A stretch of DNA of 43,336 nucleotides from Candidatus Geothermarchaeota archaeon (GTDB lineage Archaea > Thermoproteota > Nitrososphaeria > Geothermarchaeales > JDFR-13), in assembly GCA_015523725.1 (NCBI GenBank), contig WAJV01000071.1, positions 1 to 43,336 of the forward strand. The letters are read 5' to 3'. This document shows, piece by piece, positions 31,908-40,928 of this stretch. The position numbers and the translations under genes are program-made. How positions within the stretch are numbered: the stretch's first letter is position 1; each line of letters starts with the position of its first letter. Below the pieces are notes generated by a model, which saw only the letters and a program-made list of their open reading frames with translations, had not been told where the DNA came from and made no database searches.

Positions 31908-34900
31908 TTAATATTCGACCTGCTCACCCGGTGGAATAAACTCTGTATAAGATGGAGGTTCTGGAGGCAGTCCCTTCCTCCGCCTAATCTCACTCACAAC
32001 AGTGTTGAGTAAACTCTTGGGTAAAACCTGCCAGTGGCTAAACTGAGTCTGCCAGAATGCTCTGCCACCCGTGGCGCTCCTAAGCACCGGTGCCAAATCG
32101 AAGGTCTCAGCCACTGGTATATAACCATTAACAACTGAATAGTACTCCCTCTGATCAATACTAGTTACCTGCCCACGTTTACTAGCAATAACACTGGTCA
32201 CAGCACCTATTAACTCACTTGGAACCTGAACCTGAATCTTCATTATCGGCTCATATAAAGTCGGTTCTGAGGCTAATTCAGCGCCTAAAAGCGCCCTATG
32301 CAGCATAGGAACGACTTGAGCTAAAGTCCTATGAGCCGGGTCCTCATGGAATAATGCATCCAATAGAACTACTTTAACTCCTCTCAGAGGCTCTCTTGCC
32401 AAAGCACCCTCCTTAACGAAATCGAAAAACGCCCCTATCAACATCTGCTTAGACTCCTGCAGATATTGAACGCCTCTAGTTAAATCAACCATAATATTAC
32501 CGTATTCATTATCAATCGCCCAAACACTCCTGGCCTCATCAGCACTCCAACCCTTCTCCATAAGAATCTTCTGGATCTCCCGTCTACCTAGTCTCTCGTT
32601 TAACTTACCCGAGGTAATTAATTCAATTACCTCATCATCTAACTTCTCAAGCCTAACCTTAACCTTATTATGCTTATTTGGAGACTTACCTGGGAATATC
32701 GGACTCTGCTTAGTGATAGTCTCCCTATATACAACAATAGGATTGGAAACCGTAACCTCAATACCCATATCCCTCAAGAAATGTAGACTAACTTCTAGAT
32801 GTAGTGTACCCATACCAGATAAGAGATACTCACCAGTCTCCTCATTAATACTCACATGCAGATTTGGGTCTTCAATAGCCATCTTCCTCAATGCATTAAC
32901 AAGCTTGGGAAGATCCCTGGTATTCTTTGGCTCAATAGAGACTGTAACCACCGGCTCACTAATATATCTAATAGCTTCAAATGGAACCATATCCTCTAAC
33001 GTGGAAACAGTCTCACCGGCGGTAACATCACTCAGCCCAAGCACAGCAGGAATATTACCTGCAATCATTTTACTCACTACTTCGCGGTAAGGACCCATAT
33101 ACATACCTACCTGAAGTATCCTCCCCTTTCTAGCCTTATTGATTAAGTACACCTCCATACCTGGTTCTAGAGACCCAGACAATAAACGGCCCGTCGCAAC
33201 TAGGCCAGCCTTTTCATCGACAATAACATTAGTGACCATAAAAGCTACAGGTCCATCGGGATCACAATTTAACATCGCCTGGCCAACCTCACTATTTAAA
33301 TCGCCCCTCCAAATCTTCGGAATACGATATTTCTGAGCTTCCAATGGAGAAGGAATATGTTCAATAACCATATCAAGAACTGCCTCATGTACAGGAAAAA
33401 TCTTACGCAACTCATCTATTCTGTTATCGGCATACATCTGGATAACATCATTAAATGTCATGCCTTTAGATTGAGCCTGCTTCAAAGTAAAGCCCCACCT
33501 ATCCTTCGCAGACCCAAAGGCTACGTTATTCAAATCCGGCCTAACCTTCCACTTATCTTTATATTCATTCTCCGCAAAAACATCGATAAGCTTATTAAAT
33601 CTAGTAATAATTCGAATCAACTTCTTTTGAATATCCTTTGGTTCCATACGTAGCTCAGTTATTAACCTATCAACCTTATTAATAAAGAGAATAGGCTTAA
33701 CCCTCTCCTCTAAAGCCTGCCTCGTCACGGTCTCAGTCTGAACCATAACCTCCTCCACAGCATCCACTACAACCACAGCCCCATCAATAGCTCTAAGCGC
33801 CCTAGTGACCTTGCCGGTAAAATCTACATGACCAGGCGTATCTATTAGATTAATAACATAACTTTCACCATTATAATCATGGAGTAAACTAATATTGGCT
33901 GTCTTAATAGTTATCCCCCTCTTCTGCTCCTCCTCCAGATAATCTAAAGCCCTAGCCTCACCAGCAACAGTTGGACTCAATAATCCAGATGCAGCTAACA
34001 AAGAATCTGTCAAAGTAGTATTATGAACTATAATGCCATTAGCCACAAATGTATGGGTGCCAGGGACAGTCAAGTCATATACATCAAAATCTCCTTCAAT
34101 AACATCAATATCCACAACCTCTACGATCCGGATATCGCCGAATGCTAGGCTCCTCCACTGGTTCAATACAATTTTTATCGACTCATCTACACTATCAGAA
34201 CCATCGATAACTCTTTTCCATACATCCTTAATAGCATTACCAAAATTAGTCAGTAGATATTTATCATTCACAGCCTTCAATACTCCATCCCTAATTAGAG
34301 ATCTAACGACACCTCTATCACGATTATTAAACTCATCCACTTCACCGGCTAGAGCCTTATTTAAGACATCATACTTATACTTGAGTCTTTTAATATTGAA
34401 GCCCTCACTAAGTCTTTCAACAATCTTCCTGAAGGTACTCAATGTGAGCTTTTTACGCCCATCCTCATAATAACTATAATATGGTATCGATAACTCAGAC
34501 GCCGAGAGCCCAATAGCAAGCCTCAAGGTCTTAAGCTCATTACCCTCGATAGGAACATACTGCCCACCCCTCGAACTACCAGCCTTACTTAATAATGCCT
34601 CAAGCCCAGCTCTCTTAACAGAACTCCCGAACCCAATATACTCCGCGAACTTACTGACATCTTTTCCAGAAATATATAGAATCCCATATGCCCCACTCCT
34701 CCGAACAATAGGCAAAATCCCAAACCTCTGCAGGAGATATGCAACCTCCACTAAAAATTCATTTAATGCCGAGGTTAAACTAACTGCAGAATGTGACCAC
34801 TCAACTGTACCACTAATGTCAAATAGCCCTTTTAAGAAAAACCTTACATAATCATTATCTAGTGAAGATATTACCTCAGGCAATACAAGGGATTTAGCCT

Positions 34901-35927
34901 TCGACCTCATTGGATAATTAAAGACACCATACATGAACCTTTCGTAGGCCTTACCTCCACGATGTAATACCCTTTTAGTCGTACGTCCAACCAATACAGT
35001 TATTCCTATCTTGAAAGCATTCCATAAATTATATTCATATAAATCAATCAACTCATCATCCGAAGAATTAAGTGAACAATTAGACGAGCCATCCCCAAAC
35101 AATAGACCAACAACATATAGTGCAGACTTAAGCTCTTCAACAGTCTTAGGCAATGAAAATTTACTAACCCTACCTCCATACCTTCCATTATTGCCCTTAT
35201 ACCCAACAAATTTAATCGAATCGTATAGCTCAAGTAGGTCCAGACCAAATGAATCGACCAACCGCCGAATATCAACACACCTGTAGCGTCCATGCTTAAC
35301 CGACTCAAGCAGCATTTTATAGGATGTCCCCACACCACTCTCATAAACCCTCTTAACCATCCGAGACCTAATCATCCTCTCGATAACAGATTTGAGCGGC
35401 TCATCAAGATATATATACATATCATCCTGTTTAAGAAGCCAATCCATAACATATCTCTTAAACCAATCTAAGCCACGGCCCCGGATGCGAACAATACTGG
35501 GAACCACTATATGATGACCTGGCCTGAGCTCATCGGCTCTAATAGGCTTTAATATACCAGAACCATCTACTGTATAGAATGGATGCTCTGGAGTGACCTT
35601 AACCTCATATCCGTTCCTAAGCCTCACACGAATAATCCTATCCTTCTTTAGACGCCAAATATGTGAAGCTCTAACCAAATTTATGCTCTTAGACTTAGGG
35701 TCGAAGCTGGGAAGCTCAACATCAAAGGCAAACGCACCATAACCCTCGCCAACTGAATACCTAAACAAATCCTTGATACGGATTAGCCTACCATCACCTA
35801 AGAAAACCACAGTATCCCCAGCAACGCACTTCCCGTGGTCGACATGTGCGATAATGCCTATATTTCTGACTCTACTCCTATCACTAATCAATTTCAATAT
35901 CTCATTTGTTTGTTTATACCTAACCAT
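31908..35927 (-). CDS. fusA: Elongation factor 2 with in-frame intein
   Basis: 1,339-residue precursor: 33-residue N-extein, 603-residue intein, 703-residue C-extein; the spliced protein is 736 residues, normal for archaeal EF-2. This GTPase moves tRNA and mRNA through the ribosome. G1 is AHVDHGK-TT, split by the intein between Lys33 and Thr; then DTPGHVDF (G3) and NKVD (G4). Domain IV carries the diphthamide His (codon 32331-32333, mature residue about 596) in EDPAHRTLAQ, where archaeal EF-2 usually has HRGPAQ. GGTGAG precedes ATG 35927. The gene is convergent with tfb. Confidence 0.95.
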   Translation of the reverse strand: MVRYKQTNEILKLISDRSRVRNIGIIAHVDHGKCVAGDTVVFLGDGRLIRIKDLFRYSVGEGYGAFAFDVELPSFDPKSKSINLVRASHIWRLKKDRIIRVRLRNGYEVKVTPEHPFYTVDGSGILKPIRADELRPGHHIVVPSIVRIRGRGLDWFKRYVMDWLLKQDDMYIYLDEPLKSVIERMIRSRMVKRVYESGVGTSYKMLLESVKHGRYRCVDIRRLVDSFGLDLLELYDSIKFVGYKGNNGRYGGRVSKFSLPKTVEELKSALYVVGLLFGDGSSNCSLNSSDDELIDLYEYNLWNAFKIGITVLVGRTTKRVLHRGGKAYERFMYGVFNYPMRSKAKSLVLPEVISSLDNDYVRFFLKGLFDISGTVEWSHSAVSLTSALNEFLVEVAYLLQRFGILPIVRRSGAYGILYISGKDVSKFAEYIGFGSSVKRAGLEALLSKAGSSRGGQYVPIEGNELKTLRLAIGLSASELSIPYYSYYEDGRKKLTLSTFRKIVERLSEGFNIKRLKYKYDVLNKALAGEVDEFNNRDRGVVRSLIRDGVLKAVNDKYLLTNFGNAIKDVWKRVIDGSDSVDESIKIVLNQWRSLAFGDIRIVEVVDIDVIEGDFDVYDLTVPGTHTFVANGIIVHNTTLTDSLLAASGLLSPTVAGEARALDYLEEEQKRGITIKTANISLLHDYNGESYVINLIDTPGHVDFTGKVTRALRAIDGAVVVVDAVEEVMVQTETVTRQALEERVKPILFINKVDRLITELRMEPKDIQKKLIRIITRFNKLIDVFAENEYKDKWKVRPDLNNVAFGSAKDRWGFTLKQAQSKGMTFNDVIQMYADNRIDELRKIFPVHEAVLDMVIEHIPSPLEAQKYRIPKIWRGDLNSEVGQAMLNCDPDGPVAFMVTNVIVDEKAGLVATGRLLSGSLEPGMEVYLINKARKGRILQVGMYMGPYREVVSKMIAGNIPAVLGLSDVTAGETVSTLEDMVPFEAIRYISEPVVTVSIEPKNTRDLPKLVNALRKMAIEDPNLHVSINEETGEYLLSGMGTLHLEVSLHFLRDMGIEVTVSNPIVVYRETITKQSPIFPGKSPNKHNKVKVRLEKLDDEVIELITSGKLNERLGRREIQKILMEKGWSADEARSVWAIDNEYGNIMVDLTRGVQYLQESKQMLIGAFFDFVKEGALAREPLRGVKVVLLDALFHEDPAHRTLAQVVPMLHRALLGAELASEPTLYEPIMKIQVQVPSELIGAVTSVIASKRGQVTSIDQREYYSVVNGYIPVAETFDLAPVLRSATGGRAFWQTQFSHWQVLPKSLLNTVVSEIRRRKGLPPEPPSYTEFIPPGEQVEY
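34020..35828 (-). mobile_element. Intein in the EF-2 P-loop with LAGLIDADG endonuclease
   Basis: 603 codons, from Cys34 of the precursor to Asn636. Splicing blocks: CVAGDTVVFLGDG (A), VTPEHPFYT with block-B His115, FDVYDLTVPGTHTFVANG (F), and IIVHN before Thr (G). Two dodecapeptide motifs, VGLLFGDG (about 272-281) and LKGLFDISG (365-374), keep both catalytic Asp, so the homing endonuclease may be active. Between the second motif and block F lies an added region with an XRE-like HTH (LAIGLSASELSIP) and a possible winged helix. Unspliced protein would have a broken GTP site. Confidence 0.93.
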
Positions 35928-35971
35928 TACTATCTCACCACAGAATAATCTATGTCATTAGATATCCAATC

Positions 35972-38407: not shown

Positions 38408-39043
38408 TCAAACTCCTTTTGCTGGGTGTATCCCTTTACTCCTAAGATATTGTGCAATAGCTTTCAATAATTTTGCAGGTGATTCTATTGGATAATCTAG
38501 GCTATCCAAGATCTCTCCCACTGGAATACCATATATTGATAATCCACCTAGTCTCTCAAGTAAGCCAGCTCGATCCACCGGGAAATCCATCCCACGGATT
38601 TTCTTCAAGACTATCACAGCCCATTCAACACCAAGCGTCTCCATAGCACTGGATAGACTACTTAATTCTTCTTCAGTCTTACGGCTCAACACATTTTTAT
38701 ATGCAAGCTTAGCCAATCCACCGGCGATATGGTCATCTATCTTTTCCTCGGGCAACTCTCCCCTAACCTTCCGCAATACGTCTTCCGGATCGGCTCTCAA
38801 CATCCTATCTACCGTGGCCTTAGTAACCCCTAGTTCCCTAGCGATCTCTTCATGGGTCCTACCAGCATTCGATAATAGAATTGCGTAATTAGCCTTGATG
38901 ATACTAGGTATCCATGTTAAATTCCTGAATTGAATTATTTTCTTGGGGCCGCCGAGAACATTCAATGCTTCCAGGAGCATCTCCAACACCATCTCATCCC
39001 TCTTCTTATCCAAATCTTTTGGAGGCTTTATCTCTATCACCAT
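38408..39043 (-). CDS. HTH protein coupled to a KaiC-like ATPase
   Basis: About 211 residues. HTH in the first half: RTHEEIARELGVTKATVDRML (in part EEIARELGVTKATVDRM), preceded by a helix-rich region. The second half (about 105-210) is a conserved helical domain with LGVEWAVIVLKK and YPIESPAKLLKA. Thermoprotei carry homologs annotated as regulatory proteins; the target is not known to me. AGGAGGTG fits ATG 39043 rather than the GTG at 39052. It follows directly after the ATPase stop, so the two are translated together. Confidence 0.65.
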   Translation of the reverse strand: MVIEIKPPKDLDKKRDEMVLEMLLEALNVLGGPKKIIQFRNLTWIPSIIKANYAILLSNAGRTHEEIARELGVTKATVDRMLRADPEDVLRKVRGELPEEKIDDHIAGGLAKLAYKNVLSRKTEEELSSLSSAMETLGVEWAVIVLKKIRGMDFPVDRAGLLERLGGLSIYGIPVGEILDSLDYPIESPAKLLKAIAQYLRSKGIHPAKGV

Positions 39044-39048
39044 ATCCA

Positions 39049-39906
39049 TCACCTCCTAATATAATCCTCTAAAGGAGAAACTATCCTTACAAGACCTGTA
39101 TCAGTTATTTCAAAAACATAAGTCCTCCCATCATGACCCGTCATCCTACACCCATCTATCCTAAATAATCTAACTACACTACCTATCGGAACCTTATATA
39201 GATTAGACTCAAACTTACTCATTATTAATTTTTTATACAAAACTATAGTTCCATCAACTATATGTGCAACACCATAACCACCAGCTGCCTCGGCACTCAT
39301 CTCCTCACTACTGCTACGCTTCTGTGATACAAGTAGAGCAGTCTGGTACCACTTCTTAAGGAAGTTATACACCTTCCTCACAATTGATCTAGCCATAACC
39401 TCTTTAGCCTCAAACAATCCAGTTACACTATCAATCACTGTATTCTTAATATTATAGGTCTTAATGCCATAGGCCATGGTATCCAATAATTTATCCAAGT
39501 CTTCCCTAAGTCTATGATCAGAAGCCGCATCAATTATAAATAAATTATCACTAATAGAATTAAAGTCAATACCCATAGCCTTAGCCCTTGACATGAGAGA
39601 CTGTGCAACAAATTCTTTAGGCGTCTCAACAGTAACAAACATCGTTCTATATCCCAAACTAGCTTGCTTAACGGCAAACTGTTCAACCATTAAACTCTTC
39701 CCCGTATCAGCTACACCAGTAATATTAATAACACCTAGGTAGGGATATCCACCCAAAGGAGACTTTTCAACCTTTCCATTAATATAATCCACCTTATAAA
39801 ATAAATCATCTAGGCCTTCAACCCCAGAAGGAACACCAAACAACTTGGGAACCTGTGTTTTCAACCTAGATAATGAATATAGATTCTCGCCAGTCACAGT
39901 AACCAC
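39049..39906 (-). CDS. KaiC-like RecA-fold ATPase
   Basis: 285 residues, single KaiC/RadA-type domain. GVPSGVEGLDDLFYKVD at the start, Walker A GVADTGKS, a paired-Glu analogue after MFVTVETPKEFV, Walker B-like NTVIDSVTGLF, and ALLVSQKRSS. It belongs to COG0467, where archaeal members act in signalling, motility or DNA repair; this one lacks the second KaiC domain. The first 45 residues and the VRLFRIDGCRMTGHDG end are typical. GAGGTGG overlaps the GTG at 39906 and suits a GTG at 39897. First gene of a two-gene operon with the HTH protein. Confidence 0.82.
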   Translation of the reverse strand: MVTVTGENLYSLSRLKTQVPKLFGVPSGVEGLDDLFYKVDYINGKVEKSPLGGYPYLGVINITGVADTGKSLMVEQFAVKQASLGYRTMFVTVETPKEFVAQSLMSRAKAMGIDFNSISDNLFIIDAASDHRLREDLDKLLDTMAYGIKTYNIKNTVIDSVTGLFEAKEVMARSIVRKVYNFLKKWYQTALLVSQKRSSSEEMSAEAAGGYGVAHIVDGTIVLYKKLIMSKFESNLYKVPIGSVVRLFRIDGCRMTGHDGRTYVFEITDTGLVRIVSPLEDYIRR

Positions 39907-40066
39907 CTCAAGTAAACCCTTACCACAAATTAACTAAACTCAATAATTTAATATAAGGAATATTAACTGGCTTATACCAAGGAAATATTGAAATATATGG
40001 GTTTGTTTATTAATTTATATATATAAAATATATAAAAAGAAAATAGTCAATAAGTAGTGCGGATTT

Positions 40067-40246
40067 TTATTCCTCTTCCCACTCCTCTTCCTCGTCCTCT
40101 TCTTCCTCCTCCCAATCTTCCTCCCAGTCCTCCTCCCAATCTTCTTCAATATCCCAATCTTCGTCTAGATCCTCCAAATCCTCATCCCAATCCTCCTCAT
40201 CCTCCCATTCTTCCTCTTCTTCCTCTTCCCACTCCTCCTCGAACAT
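40067..40246 (-). CDS. Extremely acidic Trp-repeat miniprotein
   Basis: 59 residues, of which 46 are Asp or Glu and 8 are Trp. Only Met, Phe, two Leu and one Ile remain, and there is no basic residue. The core is a four-residue beat, EEDW-EEDW-EEDW (residues 34-45), with wider Trp spacing outside it. It is a real gene by signals: AGGTG at 40254-40258 is 7 bases before the ATG, TATA TTTATAAA is at 40294-40301, and TAA is followed by T-rich sequence. Net charge is about -46. It is not recognised; a DNA mimic, metal or polyamine binder, or chaperone tail are possible. A plus-strand Pro-rich frame across it is a shadow. Confidence 0.75.
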   Translation of the reverse strand: MFEEEWEEEEEEEWEDEEDWDEDLEDLDEDWDIEEDWEEDWEEDWEEEEEDEEEEWEEE

Positions 40247-40253
40247 CCCTGTA

Positions 40254-40301
40254 CACCTAAAAATATGTTTCCAATTATATCATGAATAATCAATTTATAA
40301 A
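40254..40301 (-). promoter_or_regulatory. Promoter and ribosome-binding site of the acidic miniprotein
   Basis: TTTATAAA at 40294-40301 and a second TATA-like element at 40275-40280 (minus strand GATATAATTGG region), then AGGTG at 40258-40254. The first would give a leader of about 25 bases that includes the ribosome-binding site. Confidence 0.5.
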
Positions 40302-40367: not shown

Positions 40368-40928
40368 TCATAGCTTTATCAAAACATCCATGATTTTAAA
40401 TAGCCGCTCAATCCTAATTCTCTCCAACTCATCCAGTTCATGAGAGAAACTTCTACTTATTCTCGAACCATAATATGCATTTACCAGTAGAGTAGAAGGC
40501 AATTCAAACAAACTATCCAAATAATCAGTATCACCATAATGTAGAAAAATTCCCAAGTCATTCACAACCAATATATCAGTGGGAACCTCCTCAAATCTTT
40601 TAAATAACTTCATGGCCTTAACATAGTTATCATATATATATTTATTCAATTCCAATTTATTCCTTGACATAAGCCTAGGGGCCTTAAATCCTGCATCGGA
40701 ATAATACCTCAAATGACCTACATCAATATATTCATCAATGCCACGGCCAACCGACCCATATCTAGGAGCCAAATCAATAATCGTTATATCTAGTCCTGAT
40801 CTACTCTTAACCCACTCACCAATTATATATGCTGTTAATAAGGTCTTCCCGGAAGAGACGTCGCCAATAATAAGTGTCTTTTTATTTAATAACTCCGACG
40901 GCCTAATAACCAATAAATTATTCATCAT
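40368..40928 (-). CDS. Small P-loop ATPase at the end of the thiamine operon
   Basis: 186 residues. Walker A GDVSSGKT near residue 25 and Walker B ILVVNDLGIF near 120. The Asp-rich segment DITIIDLAPRYG follows the first helix. It has no ABC signature, so it is not the ATPase of an ECF importer. It starts inside the last codons of thiW (4-base overlap), making it part of the thiamine salvage operon by transcription. A role in transport, regulation or DNA handling cannot be chosen from the sequence. Family not recognised. Confidence 0.65.
   Translation of the reverse strand: MMNNLLVIRPSELLNKKTLIIGDVSSGKTLLTAYIIGEWVKSRSGLDITIIDLAPRYGSVGRGIDEYIDVGHLRYYSDAGFKAPRLMSRNKLELNKYIYDNYVKAMKLFKRFEEVPTDILVVNDLGIFLHYGDTDYLDSLFELPSTLLVNAYYGSRISRSFSHELDELERIRIERLFKIMDVLIKL

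Follow-up and report, generated by a model that had tools for sequence, protein, structure and literature searches.

A candidate family of tiny acidic-aromatic archaeal proteins whose genes usually adjoin protein-synthesis genes in Thermoproteota

The DNA analysed here (the window) is a stretch of 43,336 nucleotides from a Candidatus Geothermarchaeota archaeon. It holds a single acidic-aromatic open reading frame (ORF), which lies on the minus strand (Table 1) and translates as MFEEEWEEEEEEEWEDEEDWDEDLEDLDEDWDIEEDWEEDWEEDWEEEEEDEEEEWEEE. Residue counts bear out the extreme composition reported in the original prediction: 46 of the 59 residues are Asp or Glu (78%), eight are Trp, and Lys, Arg and His are all absent. 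The chain ends in WEEE and thus has no terminal aromatic residue. The expression signals claimed for the gene were also located, namely a putative TATA box, TTTATAAA, ∼47 nt upstream of the ATG, and an AGGTG that matches the anti-Shine-Dalgarno sequence 7 nt upstream of it; promoter, leader and peptide gene are arranged in the same way in a sister species (L052). A Pro-rich frame had been described as overlapping the gene in antisense. Such a frame does exist (40057-40260, plus strand), and it is a mere complement of the purine-rich peptide gene.

Table 1. Features of the peptide locus and its surroundings in the window
Feature	Position	Strand	Evidence or remark
Acidic-aromatic micro-protein gene, 59 aa	40067..40246	-	Conserved ORF; only position-3 substitutions relative to sister species
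TATA-box-like TTTATAAA of the peptide gene	40294..40301	-	Kept in L052; putative
AGGTG ribosome-binding site	40254..40258	-	GGGTG at the same place in L052
T-rich stretch 3′ of the stop, possible terminator	40025..40047	-	Direct sequence reading
KaiC-like ATPase, NCBIfam TIGR03878 (thermo_KaiC_2), neighbour	39049..39906	-	418.9 bits against a cut-off of 232.2
HTH protein, TIGR03879 (near_KaiC_dom), neighbour	38408..39052	-	93.4 bits against a cut-off of 65.1
P-loop protein without family, neighbour in the window's genus	40368..40928	-	Sequence searches
EF-2 gene with intein	31908..35954	-	2.5 kb past the HTH gene

Comparative evidence throughout shows that this frame is a real protein-coding gene, as had been proposed, and an easily missed one. 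Conservation in close relatives, whose absence had been named as grounds for rejecting the gene, was found. Over 56 aligned codons, the window and L052 differ at 0, 0 and 20 first, second and third codon positions, respectively; such a pattern between two species of one genus shows that the peptide is under selection. Across 28 pairs of related peptides the corresponding differences were 53, 37 and 314, and of the codon changes 258 were synonymous and 90 non-synonymous; protein alignment is biased toward matches at positions 1 and 2, and gap-poor pairs give the same picture. A chance open frame in purine-rich, low-complexity DNA would be helped by the rarity of stops in this frame of GAR-rich sequence. 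Yet divergence is biased to position 3, start, stop, promoter and synteny are all conserved, and the same kind of peptide recurs throughout the phylum. Under the same acidic-aromatic criterion, 591 kb of bacterial and DPANN KaiC loci yielded one match, and 168 kb of Thermoproteota flanks yielded no unlinked ORF of this kind. The codon-position and control-ORF counts refute the chance-frame reading, to which we attach virtually no credence.

The gene was said to sit beside a KaiC-like ATPase/HTH pair, and it does: the TIGR03878 KaiC is the next gene downstream, followed by the TIGR03879 protein. An acidic-aromatic ORF of about 43-59 aa adjoins the orthologous KaiC in all genomes of the same archaeal family with an intact locus (members by name include Candidatus Geothermarchaeum rappei and Candidatus Scotarchaeum otlingeri). 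The two genes are divergent in most family members and co-directional in the window's genus. This constancy would suit a peptide that belongs to a KaiC-HTH signalling module confined to the one archaeal family, as would a 28-residue copy near the KaiC of one Nanoarchaeote (L084). However, the KaiC-HTH pair also occurs widely among thermophilic bacteria and DPANN, and in none of 72 such loci (591 kb) does the peptide lie beside it; conversely, 46 other families have the peptide without KaiC-HTH. KaiC as a general partner was largely refuted by the phylum-wide pattern matches and the 47-family collection described below. The adjacency is local to this archaeal family only, KaiC/HTH does not hold up as the main association, and membership of such a module is very improbable.

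The surroundings of the pair have features of their own. In family f60 (L302/L075) the TIGR03878-TIGR03879 pair lies directly downstream of ABCE1 and in f1 it adjoins EF-2, so the KaiC pair itself may be linked to translation. The EF-2/HTH/KaiC/peptide linkage of the window, where all lie on the same contig, is also found in L053 and L057, with EF-2 within 2 kb. The EF-2 intein in the window is of the LAGLIDADG type and starts inside the P-loop (VDHGK); L057 has an intein at the same site and L053 has none. YrdC lies just past KaiC in three genomes of the window's family (L058, L061 and L063) and adjoins the peptide gene in L159; the window peptide gene is not adjacent to ABCE1, YrdC or KEOPS genes. 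On the other side of the peptide gene, the 186-aa P-loop protein is conserved in 15 relatives over about 130+ residues and matched nothing in Pfam or NCBIfam.

A protein search with the window peptide as query returned the sister species only, because of low complexity. Asp and Glu are encoded exactly by GAN, so DNA patterns can detect the peptide without low-complexity filters; an IUPAC pattern (GAN for D/E, TKB for W/F/L/C) and GAN/TGG/TTY codon patterns were used. The strict pattern matched 19 of 250 genomes of the class, with one control match. A looser pattern matched 74 of 300 genomes of the phylum against two for the reversed-pattern control. Among 43 genomes of the bacterial/DPANN KaiC set, the looser pattern found the Nanoarchaeote that is the source of L084 and one Cys-containing match, and 7 of 156 genomes in the Nanoarchaeote's phylum were positive. 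The matches are short stand-alone ORFs. The region 5′ of ABCE1 in 48 genomes, nearly all of them pattern-negative, held 20 more same-strand peptides (19 within 0.4 kb), and a search beside YrdC in the class added others, including reduced Phe-type members in f4.

Together the pattern, ABCE1 and YrdC searches collected 108 peptides of about 17-59 aa from 47 families, in a sample of which many genomes are drafts. The family is thus larger than the original prediction supposed and has other neighbours (ABCE1, YrdC/KEOPS, NOG1 and EF-2). Judged from sequence, this is an unrecognised family of tiny archaeal proteins, conserved across most of Thermoproteota; we infer that f4 corresponds to Nitrosopumilaceae, f21 to Desulfurococcaceae and f37 to Sulfolobaceae. 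Family peptides had no match in Pfam, eight tested had none in NCBIfam and one tested had none in the PDB at E ≤ 10, all in tests that bias filters limit. The open-access literature yielded no relevant account of small acidic proteins, whether in connection with ABCE1 or from Crenarchaeota, and a prior name is possible.

The 108 peptides share simple sequence rules. Their core is 62% Glu, 10% Asp, 9% Trp and 7% Phe, with less than 1% basic residues. Hydrophobic residues recur at a spacing of four 266 times, against 81 expected by shuffling, and 81 of the peptides end in Trp, Phe or Tyr against 20 expected. The 31 peptides that were located by their position, independently of the spacing pattern, follow suit, with 45 spacings of four (17.7 expected) and 23 aromatic ends (5.2 expected). 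The window peptide has the family traits of a short ORF, a core of >70% Asp/Glu, aromatic residues ∼4 apart and no basic residue. Since its end is WEEE, a C-terminal aromatic residue is not strictly defining; most of the window's archaeal family has one, though the window's genus does not, and ten families, the f4 group among them, lack it. Acidic-Trp tails of a similar kind also occur on larger proteins (L222 3947-4324, L223 3680-4033, L235 3095-3901 and L244 3912-4673), which include two f28 paralogues with an unknown domain of ∼75 aa, a family-less protein of 268 aa and a zinc-ribbon-like protein.

By genomic position, the usual neighbours of the peptide gene are protein-synthesis genes, in particular that of the ribosome-recycling ATPase ABCE1 (identified as NCBIfam RLI at 868.8 bits). 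In about 24 families ABCE1 lies downstream on the same strand, 1-510 nt away, often with a T-rich stretch between the two, and in f37 the peptide ORF ends only a few bases before the ABCE1 frame. Peptides found without reference to ABCE1 have it within 2.5 kb in 10 of 26 families. Automatic ABCE1 labels on proteins of <500 aa were discarded; the f1 protein is a polyamine-type ABC ATPase and that of L243 a SufC-looking ABC protein. A recurrent gene order is eS17, PRTase, Cgi121 >, THUMP <, YrdC <, PEPTIDE >, ABCE1 >, FBPase-like >, TIM >, which also brings YrdC and Cgi121 (t6A/KEOPS) and eS17 among the neighbours; the Cgi121 identity of one neighbour in L225 (Desulfurococcaceae-like) was unconfirmed by family searches. 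Elsewhere the peptide has Kae1-Bud32 directly upstream (L252) or lies next to EF-2 (L262) or NOG1 (L084 and L364). In L365 and L366 (DPANN) a peptide ending DEDW has a radical-SAM MTTase on one side and a MIP18-like FeS_assembly_P protein on the other. Rearrangements that arose independently yield translation-related neighbours once more, and the linkage to ABCE1 and t6A/ribosome genes is non-random. It is strong, not universal: f32 (molybdopterin and universal stress genes), f45 and f47 have other neighbours, and in f32 and f45 these have no obvious translation link. In f1, f3, f4, f9, f14, f27, f32, f45 and f47 the peptide is conserved even when divergent from or unlinked to ABCE1.

We infer from this distribution that the peptide works in translation, and in trans; what favours trans action is that the gene survives, and keeps a promoter of its own, where ABCE1 does not follow it. 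A disordered polyanion that carries aromatic anchors at regular intervals would fit the composition, and we propose that the peptide is intrinsically disordered or marginally helical. In our leading, still tentative reading, the peptide belongs to the archaeal translation apparatus as a trans-acting acidic-aromatic micro-protein and docks on a ribosome-recycling component, in a basic/hydrophobic groove. Conceivably, the polyanionic chain would be steered to a basic surface, where the spaced Trp/Phe residues, the terminal one above all, would insert into the hydrophobic groove. The likeliest docking site would be ABCE1 or the 30S-ABCE1 post-splitting complex, and docking would modulate the binding, release or recruitment of ABCE1. 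Several observations weigh against this reading. Archaea tend to keep their translation genes clustered, so the linkage may reflect ancestral gene order and not function. Some families have neighbours without an obvious translation link, the peptide of the window's genus is neither near ABCE1 nor provided with a terminal aromatic residue, and the predicted helix is of low confidence only.

Known systems offer partial likenesses. The ends of eIF3j/Hcr1 are acidic and bear Trp/Phe, but the protein has a folded core, and a composition like that of the peptide is no basis for judging homology. eIF3j/Hcr1 serves as an accessory factor of recycling in eukaryotes (PMC7196836). The archaeal stalk protein aP1 carries a flexible C-terminal tail that binds aEF1A, aEF2, aIF5B and aABCE1 through its terminal hydrophobic/aromatic residues (PMC6791870). 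The docking proposal was drawn, by analogy, from this aromatic-ended tail, and the peptide may resemble it in having terminal hydrophobic/aromatic residues on a flexible chain. Yet aP1, a ribosomal protein, has a single hydrophobic tail, whereas the peptide is free, has 3-10 Trp/Phe spaced by four and shares no sequence with it. A folded domain of the aP1 or eIF3j type is absent from the window peptide, which in its 59 aa of acidic repeat has no room for one.

How else might such a peptide act? A general polyanion, be it a nucleic-acid mimic, a chaperone for basic proteins (chromatin or free ribosomal proteins) or a binder of polyamines or metals, would account for a chain that is almost four-fifths acidic and has no basic residue. 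It would also fit the likeness of aromatic residues spaced in acidic runs to the aromatic-anchored acidic motifs of histone chaperones. The acidic-exposure model of activation domains (PMC10550315) offers a similar likeness. By sequence reading, polyamine-type ABC permease genes adjoin the peptide in some members of the window's family (L057, L058, L060, L061, L063 and L159). However, from a polyanion role one would expect neither a conserved aromatic C-terminus nor gene linkage to ABCE1, KEOPS, NOG1 and EF-2. A DNA mimic would be a folded protein with a DNA-like charge pattern; AlphaFold, given a single sequence, returned three low-confidence helices (mean pLDDT 68). The genomic context points to translation, and a general polyanion, with the DNA mimicry and the polyamine, chromatin or metal binding envisaged in the original prediction, is possible though rather unlikely.

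A role in cis, as an acidic leader peptide whose Glu/Asp/Trp ORF pauses or destabilises ribosomes, senses ribosome state and tunes the downstream gene (typically ABCE1), would explain why the short ORF so often precedes ABCE1 on its strand, commonly with a T-rich stretch between. In bacteria, acidic stretches in the first ∼30 aa pause or destabilise ribosomes, the ABC protein EttA relieves this, and ribosome factors modulate leaders of the MgtL type, which act by intrinsic ribosome destabilisation and are likewise short acidic ORFs 5′ of a gene (PMC11282234). Unlike these leaders, the peptide gene is conserved when unlinked from the downstream gene, as in the nine families named above, and its product is almost wholly acidic and aromatic; destabilisation by acidic residues needs neither an aromatic beat nor a terminal aromatic residue. 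A leader function is unlikely. A tail for Fe-S maturation is less likely still. Here the acidic-Trp/Phe C-terminus would recruit a cluster-delivery factor to ABCE1, which carries two [4Fe-4S] clusters (Fer4_RLI and Fer4), and the L365 and L366 loci would fit. The C-terminal targeting tripeptide of the CIA pathway reportedly reads [LIM]-[DES]-[WF]; it is absent from the window peptide, which ends EEE, and most family members end E-E-W/F without L/I/M at -3. The CIA signal and the Lto1 tail are otherwise similar to the peptide, being C-terminal acidic-Trp/Phe segments with an ABCE1 link, and the terminal [DE]-W/F of most families equals the minimal eukaryotic signal (PMC10623007). Yet both are eukaryotic, and the signal is absent from the archaeal homologues checked in that study. 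Ten families and the window's genus also lack the terminal aromatic residue, and most partners (YrdC, EF-2 and NOG1) are not Fe-S proteins.

Returning to the docking micro-protein, its broadest form would be an overlooked, near-universal Thermoproteota translation factor of 20-60 residues that acts with ABCE1 on post-splitting ribosomes. This extension is somewhat unlikely; such a factor would have been missed because its size is under gene-calling limits and low-complexity filters mask it. Length and low-complexity filters hide deeply conserved genes, of which the peptide is an example. Genetically tractable members are available for direct tests, if f37 is Sulfolobaceae as proposed. Kept phylum-wide beside ABCE1 and the tRNA t6A genes, a gene so small and so odd in composition would fill a gap in the archaeal translation machinery.
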